Shown piece by piece: positions 12,908 through 22,448 of a stretch of DNA of 64,000 nt. Both the position numbers and the translations under genes were made by a program. This stretch comes from Desulfobacterium sp. (GTDB lineage Bacteria > Desulfobacterota > Desulfobacteria > Desulfobacterales > Desulfobacteraceae), in assembly GCA_030145245.1 (NCBI GenBank), contig JAQYWC010000001.1, positions 62,001 through 126,000 of the forward strand. The letters run 5' to 3'. The first letter of the stretch is position 1, and the number at the start of each line of letters is the position of its first letter. The notes under the pieces are model-generated. The model had not been told where the DNA came from, made no database searches, and saw only the letters and a program-made list of their open reading frames with translations.

Positions 12908-13035
12908 TCCAGCAGTAAAACTATTTCCTGAAAGCCGTTCAAAAAGTGAGAGAAGATGGCCTTAACAGCGAAAGGAGGAATATTCGTCGTCAAAATTGTA
13001 GTAACCTAATTTTAACCTTAATATGGAGATCTAAC

Positions 13036-14427
13036 ATGAAAAATCTATTTTTTAAACGATTAACCATGAAATTGATGATCACGGTTCTCACTATCGCAGC
13101 ATTAGGTTTGCAAGTGGATCTTTACGCCGATACGTGTAAGGATAAGTTTCCAAACAACACACCCTTGTGGGCAGGGCCTTATGATATTTTTATCAACCCT
13201 GAACTCAACATTGCTTATCCTGATACCGGCGCTGCCTACTGGTCATTAAAGTGTACAATACCCAAGGGGGCCAAGCTGGAGTTGGTGGGCAAATATGCAC
13301 ACGCACGATATCTGTCCATCAATTCCTATGACGCAGTTTTAGGCGCTCCGACCGATTCTCTTAACGATGTTCAGATCGTTCCTGATCCAGGTTCGGAAAA
13401 CCCTTTCCTTCCTGGTGCCAACCGTAATAGTGGACACAACCGTAACTTCACCGTTACAATTCTGAATGAATTTTCTCCGGAAGATCCATCCCAGCGTGAG
13501 CCAAATACGCTGTATGCCAAAGCCGGTGACGAGGATGAACTCGTCCTGGCATGGCGTATCTATGTCACCGATAAAAAACGTGATATTACCGGCGGTGTTG
13601 GACTGCCGGAACCACGTGTAATACTGGCAAGCGGAGAGGTGTTGGATGCAGAAGCTTCATACGCGGTATTATCCATTGATCCAACAACTCTTCCTGTTAT
13701 GCTCATGGATCCGCAAACGTATTATGCGCTGAGAGAAGGACTCGTCCTTGCCCAATATGGTGTCATAGCACCGCCGAATTACCCGGCTACGAATCCCCCG
13801 GTTTTTAAAAAAGTCTTCAATGTCAATGAATCTGTCTCTTGCTCGTTCGTGGGTCAGTTCTTGGGGATGTGCAACCCAGCACCTGAATATTCTGTTGGGC
13901 AGTGGGCAAACCTTGATAATCAGTATATGTCTGTTACTGTGAACCGCGGCTATGGGGAGATTGTGGTGATTCGGGGAAAGGCGCCGGTTACGCCTGAGAC
14001 TTACCGGAGGGTGCCTTTCATGCAGGGCGACGTCGACATGCGCTATTGGTCCATAACCACAAACGAGTCAATTGCCACAACCAAAGTTGCGGACGGTATC
14101 TATGACGAGCAGGCCCCTATTGACGAAAACGGCTATTACACTATCGTAGTTAGCCTTCCCGCGGATCGTCCTCAAAATGCGCAGATTAGAAATGGCGTAA
14201 CATGGCTGGAATGGCCTGAAAATGGTGACGGTGCAGGGCATCTGGATGATGCAAATCTCATGATCCGCAACATGCTCCCATCATCTGATTTCGAGCACGC
14301 TGTCCAGAACGTGACACAACCGGGCGACGAGTCTGCAGTTCTCGGACCCTACATGCCCGTTTGTCAGTATATGAGCATCGAGGACTTTGAGGCACTCGGT
14401 CAAAGGCCTTGGAAATACCTGCCATAG
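13036..14427 (+). CDS. Secreted protein of unknown function
   Basis: The start is set at 13036, where GGAG lies eight bases upstream and the product begins with a signal peptide (MKNLFFKRLTMKLMITVLTI, cleavage likely near LYADTC). The mature protein of about 430 residues is rich in aromatic and acidic residues. It has repeated beta-strand-like segments and four to five cysteines (DTCKDKF, LKCTI, SCSFVGQFLGMCNP), suggesting disulfides in the periplasm or outside the cell. I do not recognise a catalytic motif. It lies downstream of the two-component system in the same AT-richer block and is followed by a strong terminator, so it may be the main target of that system. Confidence 0.75.
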   Translation: MKNLFFKRLTMKLMITVLTIAALGLQVDLYADTCKDKFPNNTPLWAGPYDIFINPELNIAYPDTGAAYWSLKCTIPKGAKLELVGKYAHARYLSINSYDAVLGAPTDSLNDVQIVPDPGSENPFLPGANRNSGHNRNFTVTILNEFSPEDPSQREPNTLYAKAGDEDELVLAWRIYVTDKKRDITGGVGLPEPRVILASGEVLDAEASYAVLSIDPTTLPVMLMDPQTYYALREGLVLAQYGVIAPPNYPATNPPVFKKVFNVNESVSCSFVGQFLGMCNPAPEYSVGQWANLDNQYMSVTVNRGYGEIVVIRGKAPVTPETYRRVPFMQGDVDMRYWSITTNESIATTKVADGIYDEQAPIDENGYYTIVVSLPADRPQNAQIRNGVTWLEWPENGDGAGHLDDANLMIRNMLPSSDFEHAVQNVTQPGDESAVLGPYMPVCQYMSIEDFEALGQRPWKYLP

Positions 14428-14783: not shown

Positions 14784-16394
14784 TCAGGAAGGGGGGGCGG
14801 TTGGTTGTTTAAGGAAACAGAAGGGATCCCGGTCCCGGAATGGGTCCAGCCCGCAGCTATGGGTGATGGCAAGGCATCCCCGGCATGCAGGGACGAGGTC
14901 ACAGCTTTGGCAGGCTTCACTACCCCTGCGGTAGGCACGGGCAGCATCCGAGTGATAGATCTCTTGAAGGGAGGAGTGAAGGATGTTGCCAATGGGAGAG
15001 GGGAATTTTCGGCAGGCGTGGATCTCCCCCCCGGGAAGCAGGGAGACAAAGTTAAAGGCGGCGCCGCATCCGAACCCGGTGCATCCGCCGAACAGGGGCT
15101 CTTCCTTTTCCTTGCGGATGATGTTGATCAGATTGTCCTTGAGGCCCAGGATGGGGTTTTCCCGGGCCGTTTCTTCGTATTGCCTTAAAAAAGTTTCAAA
15201 CTCCTTTGGCTCGGGCATCTGGAGCCGGGCTCCCTCTCCCACCGTGGCAAGACGGTTGAAGGTGAAGTGGTCGGCACGTCCCTGGAGGAGTTGTGACAGG
15301 GGTAGCACCTGATTCAGGTTGTCCCGGGTCAGGGTGAGCATGACCATGGAATAGATTCCCAGCTGCCGGAGCCGGTCCAGAAAGGCAAGGGAGCGGTCAA
15401 AATGCCCTGGTCCCCGTATGTGGTCGTTGTGATGGGAAAGTCCCTCAAGGCTGATCTGGAAGAACTGGGGAGGGGAGATTGCAACCAGGCGCTCCATGGC
15501 CTCCATGGGGGTGGGATTTCCGAGCACGGCAAGTCCTAGGCCCCTGTCCCGGGCGCTTTGGTAGAGGTGGAAGAAACGGGGATGAAGAAAGGGATTGCCG
15601 CCGGTAAAGGTTACCTGGCCCCGCACATGCATGGCCTGGCAAAATTGGTCAAAATCGTCCAGGACCGCCAGGGCCCTGTCATGGGGCATGACCGCCCGGT
15701 CGCTGCGATCGTAACAGTGCTTGCAGTGAAGGTCGCATGCCTGGGTGATGTGCCACTGGAGGGTGAACACCCCGGCTTCCAGGAACCCGGAGACGGTGGC
15801 ATCGCCAGGGGCTGGCAGAAAATCCCGTTGAATCCGGGAGGGGGGCGCCCAAAGAAGGCCTTTGTCAACGGCCCGGTCCAGGACCGACCTGATCACCCCC
15901 TTTGTTACATTTCCCTGGGCTGCGGCCCCAGCAAGGGGGATCTCTTCCAGGACGATTTTCAGGGCCAGGAGATCCTCGCTTTCGGCCTGGGCCACGAGAA
16001 TCTTATGGCTTTTGGGATGACGCCAGACCAGGATATGGCCGGGGCAGGGGGCAGGGGATTCCTGGTTCCCGGCACCGGGCGCAAGAAGGGAAACCAGGCG
16101 GTTCCAGGCCACGGGAACCAGCGAGAGGGCAGGGTTCACGCTTATTTTACCGGGGGCGTTCCCGTGGGGCCGGGTGTTCCCGATTTCATGGCGGGCCCAT
16201 TCCATGCTGGCAAGATCGTCGATGTAGCCCGGCAGATTCAGCGGTTCCTTTAATTGGGAGAGCATGGAGGGAAAGCCCTGGGGGGATAAATTCCCATCCA
16301 GGGCCGCCAAAACCCTTCCCCAGGTCTTTGTACCAAGGGCATGGCGGCTGCTGGAAAAGATTGAAGAATGGTTATCCAGGTGTGGTTTGGTCAC
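14784..16394 (-). CDS. Radical SAM/SPASM peptide maturase (selenobiotic type)
   Basis: A 536-residue protein whose N-terminal 200 residues look like a peptide-recognition region. The radical SAM core starts with Cys220, Cys224 and Cys227 (QACDLHCKHCYD), the ligands of the SAM-binding 4Fe-4S cluster. The C-terminus has a SPASM-like cysteine set (GGCTGFGCG, HACRKFP, CQSCDLVPACRGC) for auxiliary clusters. Enzymes of this build modify ribosomal peptides by radical chemistry. The start is a GTG at 16394 with AGGTG upstream. Seventy-nine bases upstream on the same strand lies the short multi-UGA gene described in the next entry, the obvious substrate. From memory this pair resembles the 'selenobiotic' peptide systems predicted by genome mining. 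The exact crosslink or reaction is not known to me. Confidence 0.88.
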   Translation of the reverse strand: MTKPHLDNHSSIFSSSRHALGTKTWGRVLAALDGNLSPQGFPSMLSQLKEPLNLPGYIDDLASMEWARHEIGNTRPHGNAPGKISVNPALSLVPVAWNRLVSLLAPGAGNQESPAPCPGHILVWRHPKSHKILVAQAESEDLLALKIVLEEIPLAGAAAQGNVTKGVIRSVLDRAVDKGLLWAPPSRIQRDFLPAPGDATVSGFLEAGVFTLQWHITQACDLHCKHCYDRSDRAVMPHDRALAVLDDFDQFCQAMHVRGQVTFTGGNPFLHPRFFHLYQSARDRGLGLAVLGNPTPMEAMERLVAISPPQFFQISLEGLSHHNDHIRGPGHFDRSLAFLDRLRQLGIYSMVMLTLTRDNLNQVLPLSQLLQGRADHFTFNRLATVGEGARLQMPEPKEFETFLRQYEETARENPILGLKDNLINIIRKEKEEPLFGGCTGFGCGAAFNFVSLLPGGEIHACRKFPSPIGNILHSSLQEIYHSDAARAYRRGSEACQSCDLVPACRGCLAITHSCGLDPFRDRDPFCFLKQPTAPPS

Positions 16395-16449
16395 GTTTCA
16401 CCTGTAACATGAAGAAATGGATTGATGATAGGGGCTGGCTGTTAAATGT

Positions 16450-16466
16450 GCATGCATCCAGCATGC
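16450..16466 (-). promoter_or_regulatory. SECIS-like hairpin 3
   Basis: Stem GCATGC/GCATGC with loop TGGAT starts its loop 19 bases after the third UGA. It lies beyond the UGA-UAA stop pair, in untranslated sequence, so codon choice cannot explain it. This supports the third UGA being decoded as Sec72 and the fourth being the stop. Confidence 0.72.
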
Positions 16467-16473
16467 GGTGTTA

Positions 16474-16695
16474 TCAGCTTCAGCCACTCTTGCCGGGTTG
16501 TTTATGGTCCTGGTCGGTGCCGCCGGCACCGGAGCTTCCGCCACTTCACCCGCTGTGGGAGCTACCTGCTCCCTCCTTATCGCCGCTTCAGGCGCTTTTG
16601 CCTGGAGAACAGCCGGTAAAGGCTGCGGCGGACCCCGTGATCAGACCGGCGACGCAAAAGCCCGCCAGAATCTTTTTCAGGTCGTTTCCGTCCAT
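16474..16695 (-). CDS. Multi-selenocysteine peptide, substrate of the radical SAM enzyme
   Basis: The ATG at 16695 has AAGGAG six bases upstream. Reading UGA as selenocysteine gives 73 residues. A leader (MDGNDLKKILAGFCVAGLIT, then a small-residue stretch ending FTGC) is followed by a Gly/Ser-rich core with Sec at positions 36, 50 and 72. The contexts are SAUSGD, SGUSGG and SGUS. The three UGA codons are at 16590-16588, 16548-16546 and 16482-16480; a fourth UGA at 16476-16474, directly followed by UAA, is taken as the stop. Each of the first three is followed by its own SECIS-like hairpin. Conventional calling would end the gene at codon 36. Leader and core composition, plus the adjacent maturase, fit a ribosomally made, post-translationally modified peptide. 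The TGC at residue 29 could be a cleavage or lipid-attachment point, which is uncertain. No Sec-insertion genes lie in the window. Confidence 0.85.
16515..16531 (-). promoter_or_regulatory. SECIS-like hairpin 2
   Basis: Stem CGGTGC/GCACCG with loop CGGCG starts its loop 20 bases after the second UGA, the same register as hairpin 1. The GG at loop positions 2-3 is kept. It should serve Sec50. Confidence 0.72.
16557..16573 (-). promoter_or_regulatory. SECIS-like hairpin 1
   Basis: Stem GGGAGC/GCTCCC with loop AGGTA starts its loop 20 bases after the first UGA. The closing GC pairs and the AGGT loop resemble the E. coli fdhF SECIS, whose loop (AGGUCU) also sits between GC pairs. It should recruit SelB and decode Sec36. 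Confidence 0.8.
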
Positions 16696-16858
16696 GCTTG
16701 TCTCCTTGTTCAAGGTAGGTATGGTACACATTCCCCCTGGGGGCGGGAATTCGAAAATCAGAGGCATCTTGTCAATGGGGTGGAATATTGCTTTTGTGAA
16801 TCGCCTTGGAAAGAGAGTCAGCCTGATGGAATAAAACTACCAGAGCTCCTGTGGCCTG

Positions 16859-17375: not shown

Positions 17376-17636
17376 AGAGAACCATCAGCCCTTTGCTCAT
17401 TCAGAACTGAGTACATAAAGATCTGGTGGACCATGGAAGCGCTCGGCTGCTTTCAAACATAATACGGTTTTGTCTGTCCCAGTGCGATGAAACCGTTCAA
17501 GTCATACCCTGTTCCTGGTGTGTGGGATCTGTTTACTCCTGTGTCATGCCGGGGTATGATCACACCTCTTGTCCGGCTGATTTGGTATTCAGCTTTTTTT
17601 ACTCAATTCCCTTGTTCTGCCCATTGGAATCCTCCC

Positions 17637-18182
17637 ATGAATTCTTTTTCTCAAATCGATTGCAGTAACTGGTTTGTATTATCTACAGTGCCCGGTTCGG
17701 AATACAAACTTAAAAAGTCAATCCATGTTTTTGCTGGAGACCAGGTAACTCTCTACTTGCCATGCAGGGAGCTTTGTTATCGGATCAAGGGCGATTTTAA
17801 AAAAGTAACAAAACCCATTTTCCCAGGCTATCTCTTTGTCTACAAGAAACTTGAAACGCTCATGGTAAAGAGTCGTCATTCCCCCCTGGAGAGACAGCTC
17901 CATCCCATTTGTTATAACAACTCTTTTGCCATGGTGGAGGAACATGAAATGGCTTTTTTAATAGAGCTTGCAGGAGAGACCGGGCTTGTTGAAACCTCCC
18001 GGGCCCTGGTTACCGAAGATAAGGCCGTGACCATCATCGCCGGTCCTTTGAAAAATTTTACAGGCCGCATCCTTTATATCAATAGAAGAAAACAGAAGGC
18101 AAGAATCATGGTCGAGATGCTGAACAGACAGGTTCCCGTACCCCTGGGGCTTGAGATTCTGAAACCTGGCAGGAGGTCTTAA
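17637..18182 (+). CDS. NusG-like specialised antitermination factor
   Basis: The 181-residue protein opens, after a short N-terminus, with NWFVLSTVPGSEYKLKKSI, the N-terminal RNA-polymerase-binding (NGN) domain of NusG. KPIFPGYLFVY matches the conserved PGY motif. A C-terminal KOW domain follows (VTIIAGPLKNFTGRILYINR). Housekeeping NusG is normally next to secE and ribosomal genes; this copy is not, so it belongs to the RfaH/LoaP/UpxY class that helps polymerase read through long operons. The ATG at 17637 is the most likely start, although its ribosome site is weak. LoaP-class factors often sit at the head of polysaccharide or polyketide operons, which fits the acyl-carrier remnant directly downstream. 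Confidence 0.82.
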   Translation: MNSFSQIDCSNWFVLSTVPGSEYKLKKSIHVFAGDQVTLYLPCRELCYRIKGDFKKVTKPIFPGYLFVYKKLETLMVKSRHSPLERQLHPICYNNSFAMVEEHEMAFLIELAGETGLVETSRALVTEDKAVTIIAGPLKNFTGRILYINRRKQKARIMVEMLNRQVPVPLGLEILKPGRRS

Positions 18183-22016: not shown

Positions 22017-22054
22017 AAAAAGAGCCTCTGTCTGACAGGGGCTCTTTTTTTTTG
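22017..22054 (+). terminator. Rho-independent terminator
   Basis: AAAGAGCC and GGCTCTTT form the outer stem, CTGTC/GACAG the inner stem, and a T run follows. It closes the methyltransferase transcription unit just before the repeat cluster. Confidence 0.85.
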
Positions 22055-22060
22055 TCAAAA

Positions 22061-22430
22061 CGGGGTCAGGCTTAGCTTATTGTGATTTCTATCTGTGACT
22101 TTAAAGAATAACAGCAATAAGCTAAGCCTGACCCCATGTACAAGCGGTAACAAGCTAAGCCTGACCCCATGTGCTGTCAAAAAGAGCTTAACCTGGGGAC
22201 AAAAATCATGTATGTTGCACTGATTTGTTTTATAAAACGGGGTCATAACTCGGAGTCAGGCTTAGCGTATTGTGCCTTTTATGTTAAACGGGGTCAGGCT
22301 TAGCTTATTGTGTCATTTATGTAGAACGGGGTCAGGCTTAGTTTATTGTGTCATTTTTCTATATTCAAGAATAACGGCAATAAGCTAAGCCTGACCCCAT
22401 AGTTACGACAATAAGCTAAGCCTGACCCCA
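22061..22430. repeat. Cluster of eight short inverted repeats (GGGGTCAGGCTTAGCTTATT family)
   Basis: Four copies read forward (22061-22084, 22251-22274, 22289-22312, 22327-22350) and four read as the reverse complement (22115-22136, 22151-22169, 22378-22399, 22409-22430). Facing copies bracket similar spacers ending AATAACNGCAATA, so 22061-22136 and 22327-22399 are two versions of one hairpin-forming element of about 75 bases. One copy carries a TTA/TCA-type change and another an extra insertion. The core also occurs at 9738-9766. The arrangement resembles REP/BIME or a miniature element mobilised by a REP-associated transposase. No transposase lies in the window. The cluster ends 18 bases before the tcdA start. 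Confidence 0.85.
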
Positions 22431-22448
22431 TATTTTGGATCGTAGGGA

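Follow-up and report, generated by a model that had tools for sequence, protein, structure and literature searches.

The closest described system to the locus studied here pairs a precursor peptide, SbtA, with a radical S-adenosylmethionine (SAM) maturase, SbtM, and is attributed to Lewis et al. 2021 in the available parts of both PMC11002830 and PMC13188914. According to the accessible text of PMC11002830, one SbtM acted in vitro on cysteine (Cys) and selenocysteine (Sec, U) substrates with the loss of four hydrogens, and nuclear magnetic resonance (NMR) of the Cys product showed a thiooxazole. We analysed a 64,000-nt window of Desulfobacterium sp. (GCA_030145245.1, contig JAQYWC010000001.1, positions 62,001 to 126,000), in which a first-pass annotation made from the letters alone had claimed a Sec-containing precursor of a ribosomally synthesised and post-translationally modified peptide (RiPP) beside a radical SAM/SPASM enzyme. 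Profile searches support this claim. The peptide read through its UGA codons matched TIGR04081 ('SbtA family thio(seleno)oxazole RiPP natural product precursor') with 46.7 bits (cut-off 30.5, E 1.8e-12) over residues 1-26, and the next gene matched TIGR04082 ('thio(seleno)oxazole modification radical SAM maturase SbtM') with 708.8 bits (cut-off 350) over the entire profile. Since both are curated profiles and both were matched, the family named in that annotation is correct, and the two matches together indicate that the sbtA frame is not a product of chance. The annotation had also left the chemistry on Sec open, which was too cautious given the in vitro result for one SbtM described above. 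Very probably, sbtA and sbtM form a two-gene operon for a selenium-containing RiPP, with Sec at UGA codons 36, 50 and 72 and ring formation by SbtM, and with a putative leader-driven export and metal or redox role.

The two genes are adjacent on the same strand, and both score above their profile cut-offs (Table 1). The sbtA frame opens with the ATG at 16695 and holds UGA at codons 36, 50, 72 and 74 and UAA at codon 75; a gap of 79 bases separates its last UGA (16476-16474) from the GTG of sbtM at 16394. This start, the AAGGAG site, the UGA contexts SAU-S, SGU-S and SGU-S, the tandem UGA-UAA, the length of 73 residues and the 79-base gap had all been given in the first-pass annotation, and the sequence agrees with it throughout. 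That annotation makes no mention of the hairpins that follow the Sec codons, of the placing of one of them past the stop or of the resemblance of the leader to a secretion signal. Bearing on the AAGGAG site, several relatives have Lys-Glu in frame immediately 5' of the start. In a close relative (L065; L and G numbers denote loci and genomes), all four UGA codons are kept in frame, and 11 of the 75 codons differ, seven of them silently. Such genes are readily truncated at the first UGA or overlooked, as had been claimed for standard gene callers. The locus shares with the known SbtA/SbtM system the leader profile, the radical SAM/SPASM enzyme, the gene order and the presence of Sec or Cys in S-(G/A/S)-U-(S/G) sites. 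It differs from the 'Selenobacteriocin' entry for TIGR04081 in Table 1 of PMC13188914, which, in the part of that paper available, gives the motif SGUG and the number 2 (taken here as the Sec count), whereas the window peptide has SAUS, SGUS and SGUS, three Sec and the last of them beside the stop. This difference is variation within the family and no new type.

Table 1. Features of the sbtA-sbtM locus, in window coordinates.
Feature	Position	Strand	Evidence
Ribosome-binding site AAGGAG, 6 nt 5' of the ATG	16702..16707	(-)	sequence
sbtA, 73-residue precursor, Sec at 36/50/72, stop at UGA 74	16474..16695	(-)	TIGR04081, 46.7 bits; translation with TGA=U
Leader, residues 1-29: charged start, hydrophobic stretch, FTGC at 26-29, lipoprotein-signal-like	16609..16695	(-)	profile hidden Markov model match at residues 1-26; pattern features
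UGA, Sec36, context SAU-S	16588..16590	(-)	same place in relatives mostly UGA or Cys
SECIS-type hairpin for Sec36, GGGAGC-AGGTA-GCTCCC, 14 nt past UGA	16557..16573	(-)	strict rule; fold z -1.01
UGA, Sec50, context SGU-S	16546..16548	(-)	translation with TGA=U
SECIS-type hairpin for Sec50, CGGTGC-CGGCG-GCACCG, 14 nt past UGA	16515..16531	(-)	strict rule; fold z 0.02
UGA, Sec72, context SGU-S-stop	16480..16482	(-)	translation with TGA=U
Tandem stop UGA (codon 74) + UAA, the UGA one codon past Sec72	16471..16476	(-)	strict hairpin at 0/17 such UGA stops
SECIS-type hairpin for Sec72, past the stop, GCATGC-TGGAT-GCATGC, 13 nt from UGA 72 and 7 nt from UGA 74	16450..16466	(-)	strict rule; covariation; fold z -2.59
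sbtM, radical SAM/SPASM maturase, 536 residues, CxxxCxxC at C220/C224/C227	14784..16394	(-)	TIGR04082, 708.8 bits

The bacterial Sec insertion sequence (SECIS) of the formate dehydrogenase gene fdhF is a short stem-loop past the UGA with a G and a G/U in its apical loop. The Sbt hairpins share this form, but their spacer is mostly 14 nt, and the hairpin of the last Sec lies past the stop codon. In the window, a full six-pair hairpin with an NGKNN loop follows all three Sec UGA codons, with spacers of 14, 14 and 13 nt. We scored such hairpins by a strict rule (6-bp stem with at least 5 of 6 pairs, both loop-closing pairs and at most one G-U; 5-nt NG(G/T)NN loop; spacer of 12-16 nt) in 92 distinct SbtA sequences, translated with TGA as Sec. 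This collection comprised 76 sequences from L065 on and 16 from L039-L062, with sequences sharing the same first 60 residues treated as duplicates and peptides ended at U-x-UGA by a rule of our own; L063 and L064, whose leader matches were weak, fell below the cut-off and lay within long unrelated frames, were excluded from all counts. The strict hairpin was found at 142 of 222 Sec UGA codons, compared with 1 of 58 Cys codons, none of the 17 UGA stops after U-x and 114 of 4672 other codons; the 222 include probable ordinary stops, such as codons 118 and 149 of L057, codon 73 of L079, codon 92 of L125 and codon 102 of L141. The spacer was exactly 14 nt in 94 of the 142. Matches also cluster at the codons directly before (53/222) and directly after Sec (31/220), owing to the permitted spacer range of 12-16 nt. 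The only Cys codon with a strict hairpin, codon 35 of L078, is UGA at that place in relatives, and at codon 49 of L040, again Cys where relatives have UGA, the stem is retained and the loop is not.

By set, strict hairpins followed 112 of 178 UGA codons from L065 on and 30 of 44 in L039-L062. The hairpin pattern was first noted in the window and 24 relatives, before L065-L144, and the strict limits were fixed with all 92 SbtA in view; the 112 of 178 is therefore not a clean test, and only the set of 16 further, unseen SbtA from a search of the class is clean. In that set, the strict hairpin was present at 11 of 41 UGA codons (probable stops in L153, L154, L169 and L170 included), 1 of 27 Cys codons and 22 of 1165 others, an enrichment that is less general than in the 92. 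A looser rule (spacer 8-18, loop 3-7) matched 193 of 223 Sec UGA codons, 14 of 114 Cys codons and 1016 of 5029 other codons. It also matched 13 of the 17 UGA stops, so the separation of Sec from stop depends on spacing. In the Nitrospirota loci inspected, the hairpin after the last Sec is clear and often has a 4-nt loop, which the strict rule disallows.

In 30 of the 92 SbtA, the last Sec is followed by one residue and the stop, which places the last hairpin in untranslated RNA. The stop is UGA in 17 of these 30, and UAA comes directly next in four of the 17 (L065, L066, L073 and the window's sbtA itself, L053). In a gap-free alignment of the 30 untranslated hairpins (24 distinct), 94.4% of cells were paired versus 67.1% in shuffles. 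Double changes occurred at all six pairs, with 47 double-change cells versus 14.8 in shuffles, and the covariation score was 0.779 versus 0.246, a value reached by none of 500 shuffles and lost when the partner was slid. The 30 hairpins had been chosen by best pairing, a choice that favours structure, and the control therefore applied identical picking to 300 dinucleotide-shuffle sets. These paired at 48.3% on average and 58.3% at most, versus 95.6% in the real set, and gave 0.2 fully paired (6/6) hairpins per 30 on average and 2 at most, versus 27 of 30; L121, which has no hairpin by this rule, was retained in the counts of 30. Covariation was tested for the last-Sec hairpin only. Since the sequence is noncoding, protein conservation cannot explain this covariation, which is the strongest evidence for decoding of the UGA that precedes the last residue. 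UGA 74 lies 6 nt closer to the same hairpin than UGA 72 and probably acts as a stop owing to this spacing. The sbtA locus is a clear natural test of Sec decoding, in which UGA-x-UGA is read as Sec and then stop with the signal past the stop, and 17 such cases are available. A limited literature search found nothing on a SECIS combined with a UGA stop and a C-terminal Sec.

The first-pass annotation had asked whether selA, selB, selC and selD exist elsewhere in the genome, and all four are present in the source genome (6.4 Mb in 83 contigs, 99.6% complete). The matches were 601.4 bits for selA (cut-off 267.9), 363 bits for selB (cut-off 242), 75.7 bits for tRNA-Sec (selC; gathering score 47) and 372.8 bits for selD (cut-off 125), which itself contains one in-frame TGA. 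We examined 26 genomes for Sec genes, namely 25 with SbtA or SbtM above the cut-off and G002, a genome of the same genus. A selB match at E 1e-60 or better was obtained in 25 of the 26, as was a tRNA-Sec above the cut-off; selA and selD, sought in seven of the 26, were above the cut-off in seven and six, respectively. The genome lacking a selD match above the cut-off, G069, has selB, tRNA-Sec and selA, and its assembly is fragmented. Loss of the Sec machinery was considered as the cause of all-Cys SbtA and rejected, as G057 retains selB, tRNA-Sec, selA and selD, and such loss is therefore not needed to explain these peptides.

To place the locus within its family, we surveyed relatives. SbtM and the SbtA leader were each above the cut-off in 24 of 193 related genomes, and a sample of 389 genomes of the class contained 49 with SbtA. 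Scanning named genomes gave 349 SbtM relatives, of which the best 80 were kept; the record titles of these 80 loci name Desulfobacterota, Nitrospirota, one Acidobacteria metagenome-assembled genome (MAG), one KSB1 MAG and others. SbtA was recovered in 71 of the 80 and in none of the other nine. A scan of IMG/VR for SbtM yielded no relative among 51 candidate stretches. Across the 92 SbtA, seven have no Sec, six have one, 33 have two, 41 have three, three have four, one has six (L057, in which two of the six are probably past the true stop) and one has ten. With the commonest count of three Sec, the sbtA-sbtM locus of the window is an ordinary, typical member of a known, little-studied family. 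Sec is preceded by Gly, Ser or Ala in 221 of 223 cases and followed by Ser or Gly in 194 of 223. All-Cys SbtA exist (e.g. L058, L061, L122), and single Sec-Cys exchanges were seen at matching sites, at the first site in L041 and L078 and at the second in L040. Conservation of the UGA positions in relatives, whose absence the first-pass annotation had named as refuting its claim, holds in that these sites are mostly UGA or Cys; it does not hold for the second site of L042, L069 and L108, which is neither.

Some relatives have unusual sbtA arrangements. L062 (G176:C174:22534 on) and L175 have an SbtA of 216 residues with ten in-frame UGA codons, most of which lie within tandem 20-residue repeats of SGUGGDKDSAGGADKKDSGK. 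In the ten-UGA SbtA of G176, a strict hairpin follows eight of the ten UGA codons, and one repeat carries a compensated stem change. A search for further ten-Sec arrays in the family of G176, which covered two genomes, found only G176's own; in the other genome, G122, SbtM lies near a contig edge and no SbtA match was found. In L094, L099, L100, L105, L127 and L139, two tandem sbtA genes lie 5' of one sbtM, and only one leader of each pair is lipobox-like.

SbtM was examined at the sequence and structure levels. Pfam identified Radical_SAM and SPASM domains, and the CxxxCxxC cysteines are invariant across 38 aligned sequences. A structure model built from this alignment had a mean predicted local distance difference test (pLDDT) score of 91.2 and a predicted template modelling (pTM) score of 0.89. 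Ahead of the barrel, the N-terminal part of the model has three strands and three helices, at about residues 91-178. This order of strands and helices is that of RiPP recognition elements. Foldseek placed the model nearest to the solved folds of SuiB (including its precursor-bound form), the sactipeptide-type maturase 5wgg/5why, which we take to be CteB, and SkfB; the first nine chains were all from these three proteins, at E 1.4e-13 or better. As modelled, SbtM shares with them an N-terminal part, a radical SAM barrel and a SPASM domain. It differs from them in that identities were 15-19%, template modelling scores (TM-scores) 0.43-0.60 and root-mean-square deviations large, and the family cut-offs were not reached. 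Given these TM-scores and deviations, the domain arrangement of SbtM may differ from that of SuiB, SkfB and 5wgg.

The SbtA leaders carry features of export signals. A Cys lies at residues 26-29 in 57 of the 92 leaders, and a strict lipobox pattern was present in 36 of 92, whereas 500 shuffles gave 6.3 on average and never more than 13. Many other leaders, such as those of L051 and L054, end in Ala-x-Ala right before the first Sec site. In the neighbourhoods of 80 loci, SbtM clustered in 76, and the next largest neighbour clusters were found in 17 and 14 loci and were scattered, although some groups of close relatives share neighbours. No exporter, protease or other third operon gene was conserved besides sbtA and sbtM, within a search of ATG frames of at least 70 residues at BLAST E 1e-8 that reached up to 6 kb into the flanks, of which many were truncated at contig ends, and that could overlook a small or fast-changing partner. 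Taken together, the lipobox-like and Ala-x-Ala leaders and the lack of a conserved exporter, protease or third gene suggest that the SbtA leader may double as a general secretion signal. If so, the function of the family could be tested by deletion and metal stress in cultured relatives; cultured carriers include Desulfospira joergensenii DSM 10085 (L078) and Desulfobacter latus (L108). In L080 and L050, from an Olavius endosymbiont MAG, codon 29 is UGA in place of the lipobox Cys and is followed by only a weak 4-bp hairpin; this UGA could reflect a broken gene, an error or Sec at the lipidation site.

Bufferins offer a comparison for function. In the accessible text of PMC12452194, these peptides have Cys-derived thiooxazoles, N-terminal signal peptides on their precursors and periplasmic copper binding, and that text makes no link to Sbt. 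SbtA too pairs a signal-like leader with thio(seleno)oxazole chemistry. The systems differ in that bufferins use Cys and are made by an unrelated enzyme, the multinuclear non-haem iron-dependent oxidative enzyme (MNIO, PF05114), and in that metal binding by Sbt products is only putative. PF05114 at E 1e-10 had no match in the source genome and a match in 1 of 193 relatives. We considered whether MNIO might be an alternative that excludes Sbt and rejected this, as MNIO is rare throughout the relatives searched and its absence from Sbt genomes therefore says little. A limited literature search found nothing that joins a Sec RiPP, thiooxazole, metal binding, anaerobes and a signal peptide.

We propose the following sequence of events for the window locus. 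The ribosome would start at 16695, and SelB with Sec-tRNA would bind the hairpin 13-14 nt past UGA 36, 50 and 72, so that Sec is inserted at each. The third hairpin would act from the untranslated stretch between the genes, and UGA 74, only 7 nt away from it, would be too close and lead to termination. SbtM would then bind the leader, probably via its N-terminal domain, and oxidise each Sec and the preceding peptide bond, yielding a (seleno)thiooxazole in line with the reported in vitro activity of another SbtM. The leader may carry the modified peptide out by the general secretion pathway. Outside the inner membrane, the soft selenium or sulfur ring groups might bind a soft metal or serve in redox protection, which is the weakest step.

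Several observations weigh against this proposal. On the side of decoding, the strict hairpin is absent at 80 of 222 UGA codons, at 30 of 41 in the unseen set and at the earlier UGA codons of several Nitrospirota loci. Fold energy alone does not set the first two window hairpins apart (z of -1.01 and 0.02, with -2.59 for the third). An Rfam search of 16380-16700 gave no SECIS match at E up to 5, and its one match was far below the gathering score; RF00031 had no match in the source genome, but it had none in any control either. For the untranslated hairpins, one of five covariation measures was not unusual, with 13 further pair types versus 11.9 in shuffles and 174 of 500 shuffles as high. Among the genomes, G184 has a UGA-rich SbtA and no selB at E 1e-60, though tRNA-Sec, selA and selD are present, and G118 has a UGA-rich SbtA and selB with only weak tRNA-Sec matches below the cut-off; both assemblies are fragmented. 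G002, of the same genus as the source, has neither SbtA nor SbtM above the cut-off. On the side of function, the window leader (FTGC) fits the loose lipobox pattern and not the strict one, no metal gene was conserved beside sbtAM in the 80-locus neighbour search, and the export and metal/redox steps draw on pattern features and analogy.

These observations bear on three other explanations of the locus. The UGA codons could be real stops, in which case a decayed or short peptide gene would merely lie beside an unrelated radical SAM enzyme. In favour, only 35 residues precede the first UGA and two of the three hairpins are unexceptional by energy. Against this, protein conservation runs past all three UGA codons in relatives, where UGA or Cys recurs at matching positions, a strict hairpin is common after Sec codons and very rare after Cys codons, and the genome has the full Sec machinery. 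We regard real stops as highly improbable. If Sec is inserted, the product could still be linked by thioethers or selenoethers, as in sactipeptides or ranthipeptides, rather than carry thio(seleno)oxazoles. The solved folds nearest to SbtM, those of SuiB, 5wgg/5why and SkfB, speak for such a product. Against it, SbtM scored far below the family cut-offs for AlbA (55 of 850 bits), SkfB (39 of 300) and PapB (54.2 of 340) and far above that of TIGR04082, and one SbtM makes thiooxazole according to the available text of PMC11002830, which leaves the ether-linked product improbable.

The third explanation concerns function, and holds that the product is a secreted bacteriocin directed against competitors rather than a metal or redox peptide of the envelope. 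The label 'Selenobacteriocin' in the accessible table of PMC13188914 and the patchy distribution, with SbtA above the cut-off in 24 of 193 relatives, are consistent with such a role. However, the 80 loci showed no conserved immunity gene, ABC (ATP-binding cassette) exporter or leader peptidase next to sbtAM, and the lipobox-like Cys at the end of many leaders would anchor the product in a membrane. We therefore consider a bacteriocin unlikely, though the strongest candidate of the three. To what was described before, the present analysis adds the decoding anatomy (spacing, untranslated hairpin, UGA-x-UGA), the contrast between Sec and Cys codons, the signal-like leader with the two-gene operon, and the ten-UGA relative. 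The less familiar of these elements are the reading of UGA-x-UGA as Sec then stop, the signal-like leaders, the finding of no third conserved gene and the ten-UGA relative. A bolder synthesis, which we offer tentatively and hold to be unlikely as a whole, is that Sbt peptides are exported, often membrane-anchored selenothiooxazole metallopeptides. They would correspond, in anaerobes and with selenium, to the copper-binding bufferins, with the same ring chemistry carried out by an unrelated enzyme; the ten-Sec repeats of some species could bind or store soft metal or selenium, and Sec and stop at UGA codons two positions apart would be told apart purely by distance to one hairpin.

Other features of the window lie outside the sbtA-sbtM locus. 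Just beyond sbtM, on the opposite strand, 12946-14427 encodes a 493-residue protein that matched neither Pfam (E 0.01) nor NCBIfam (E 0.001). At 22047-22431, about eight copies of a repeat around GGGGTCAGGCTTAGCTTATTG occur in both orientations; this cluster resembles the REP-like (repetitive extragenic palindrome-like) elements of Y1-type transposases. The stretch 17487-18182 encodes a NusG-family protein that is closest to the antiterminator LoaP (114.2 bits, below the cut-off of 125) and lies upstream of genes for a TonB-dependent receptor and an O-methyltransferase, with which it possibly forms a separate biosynthetic operon.

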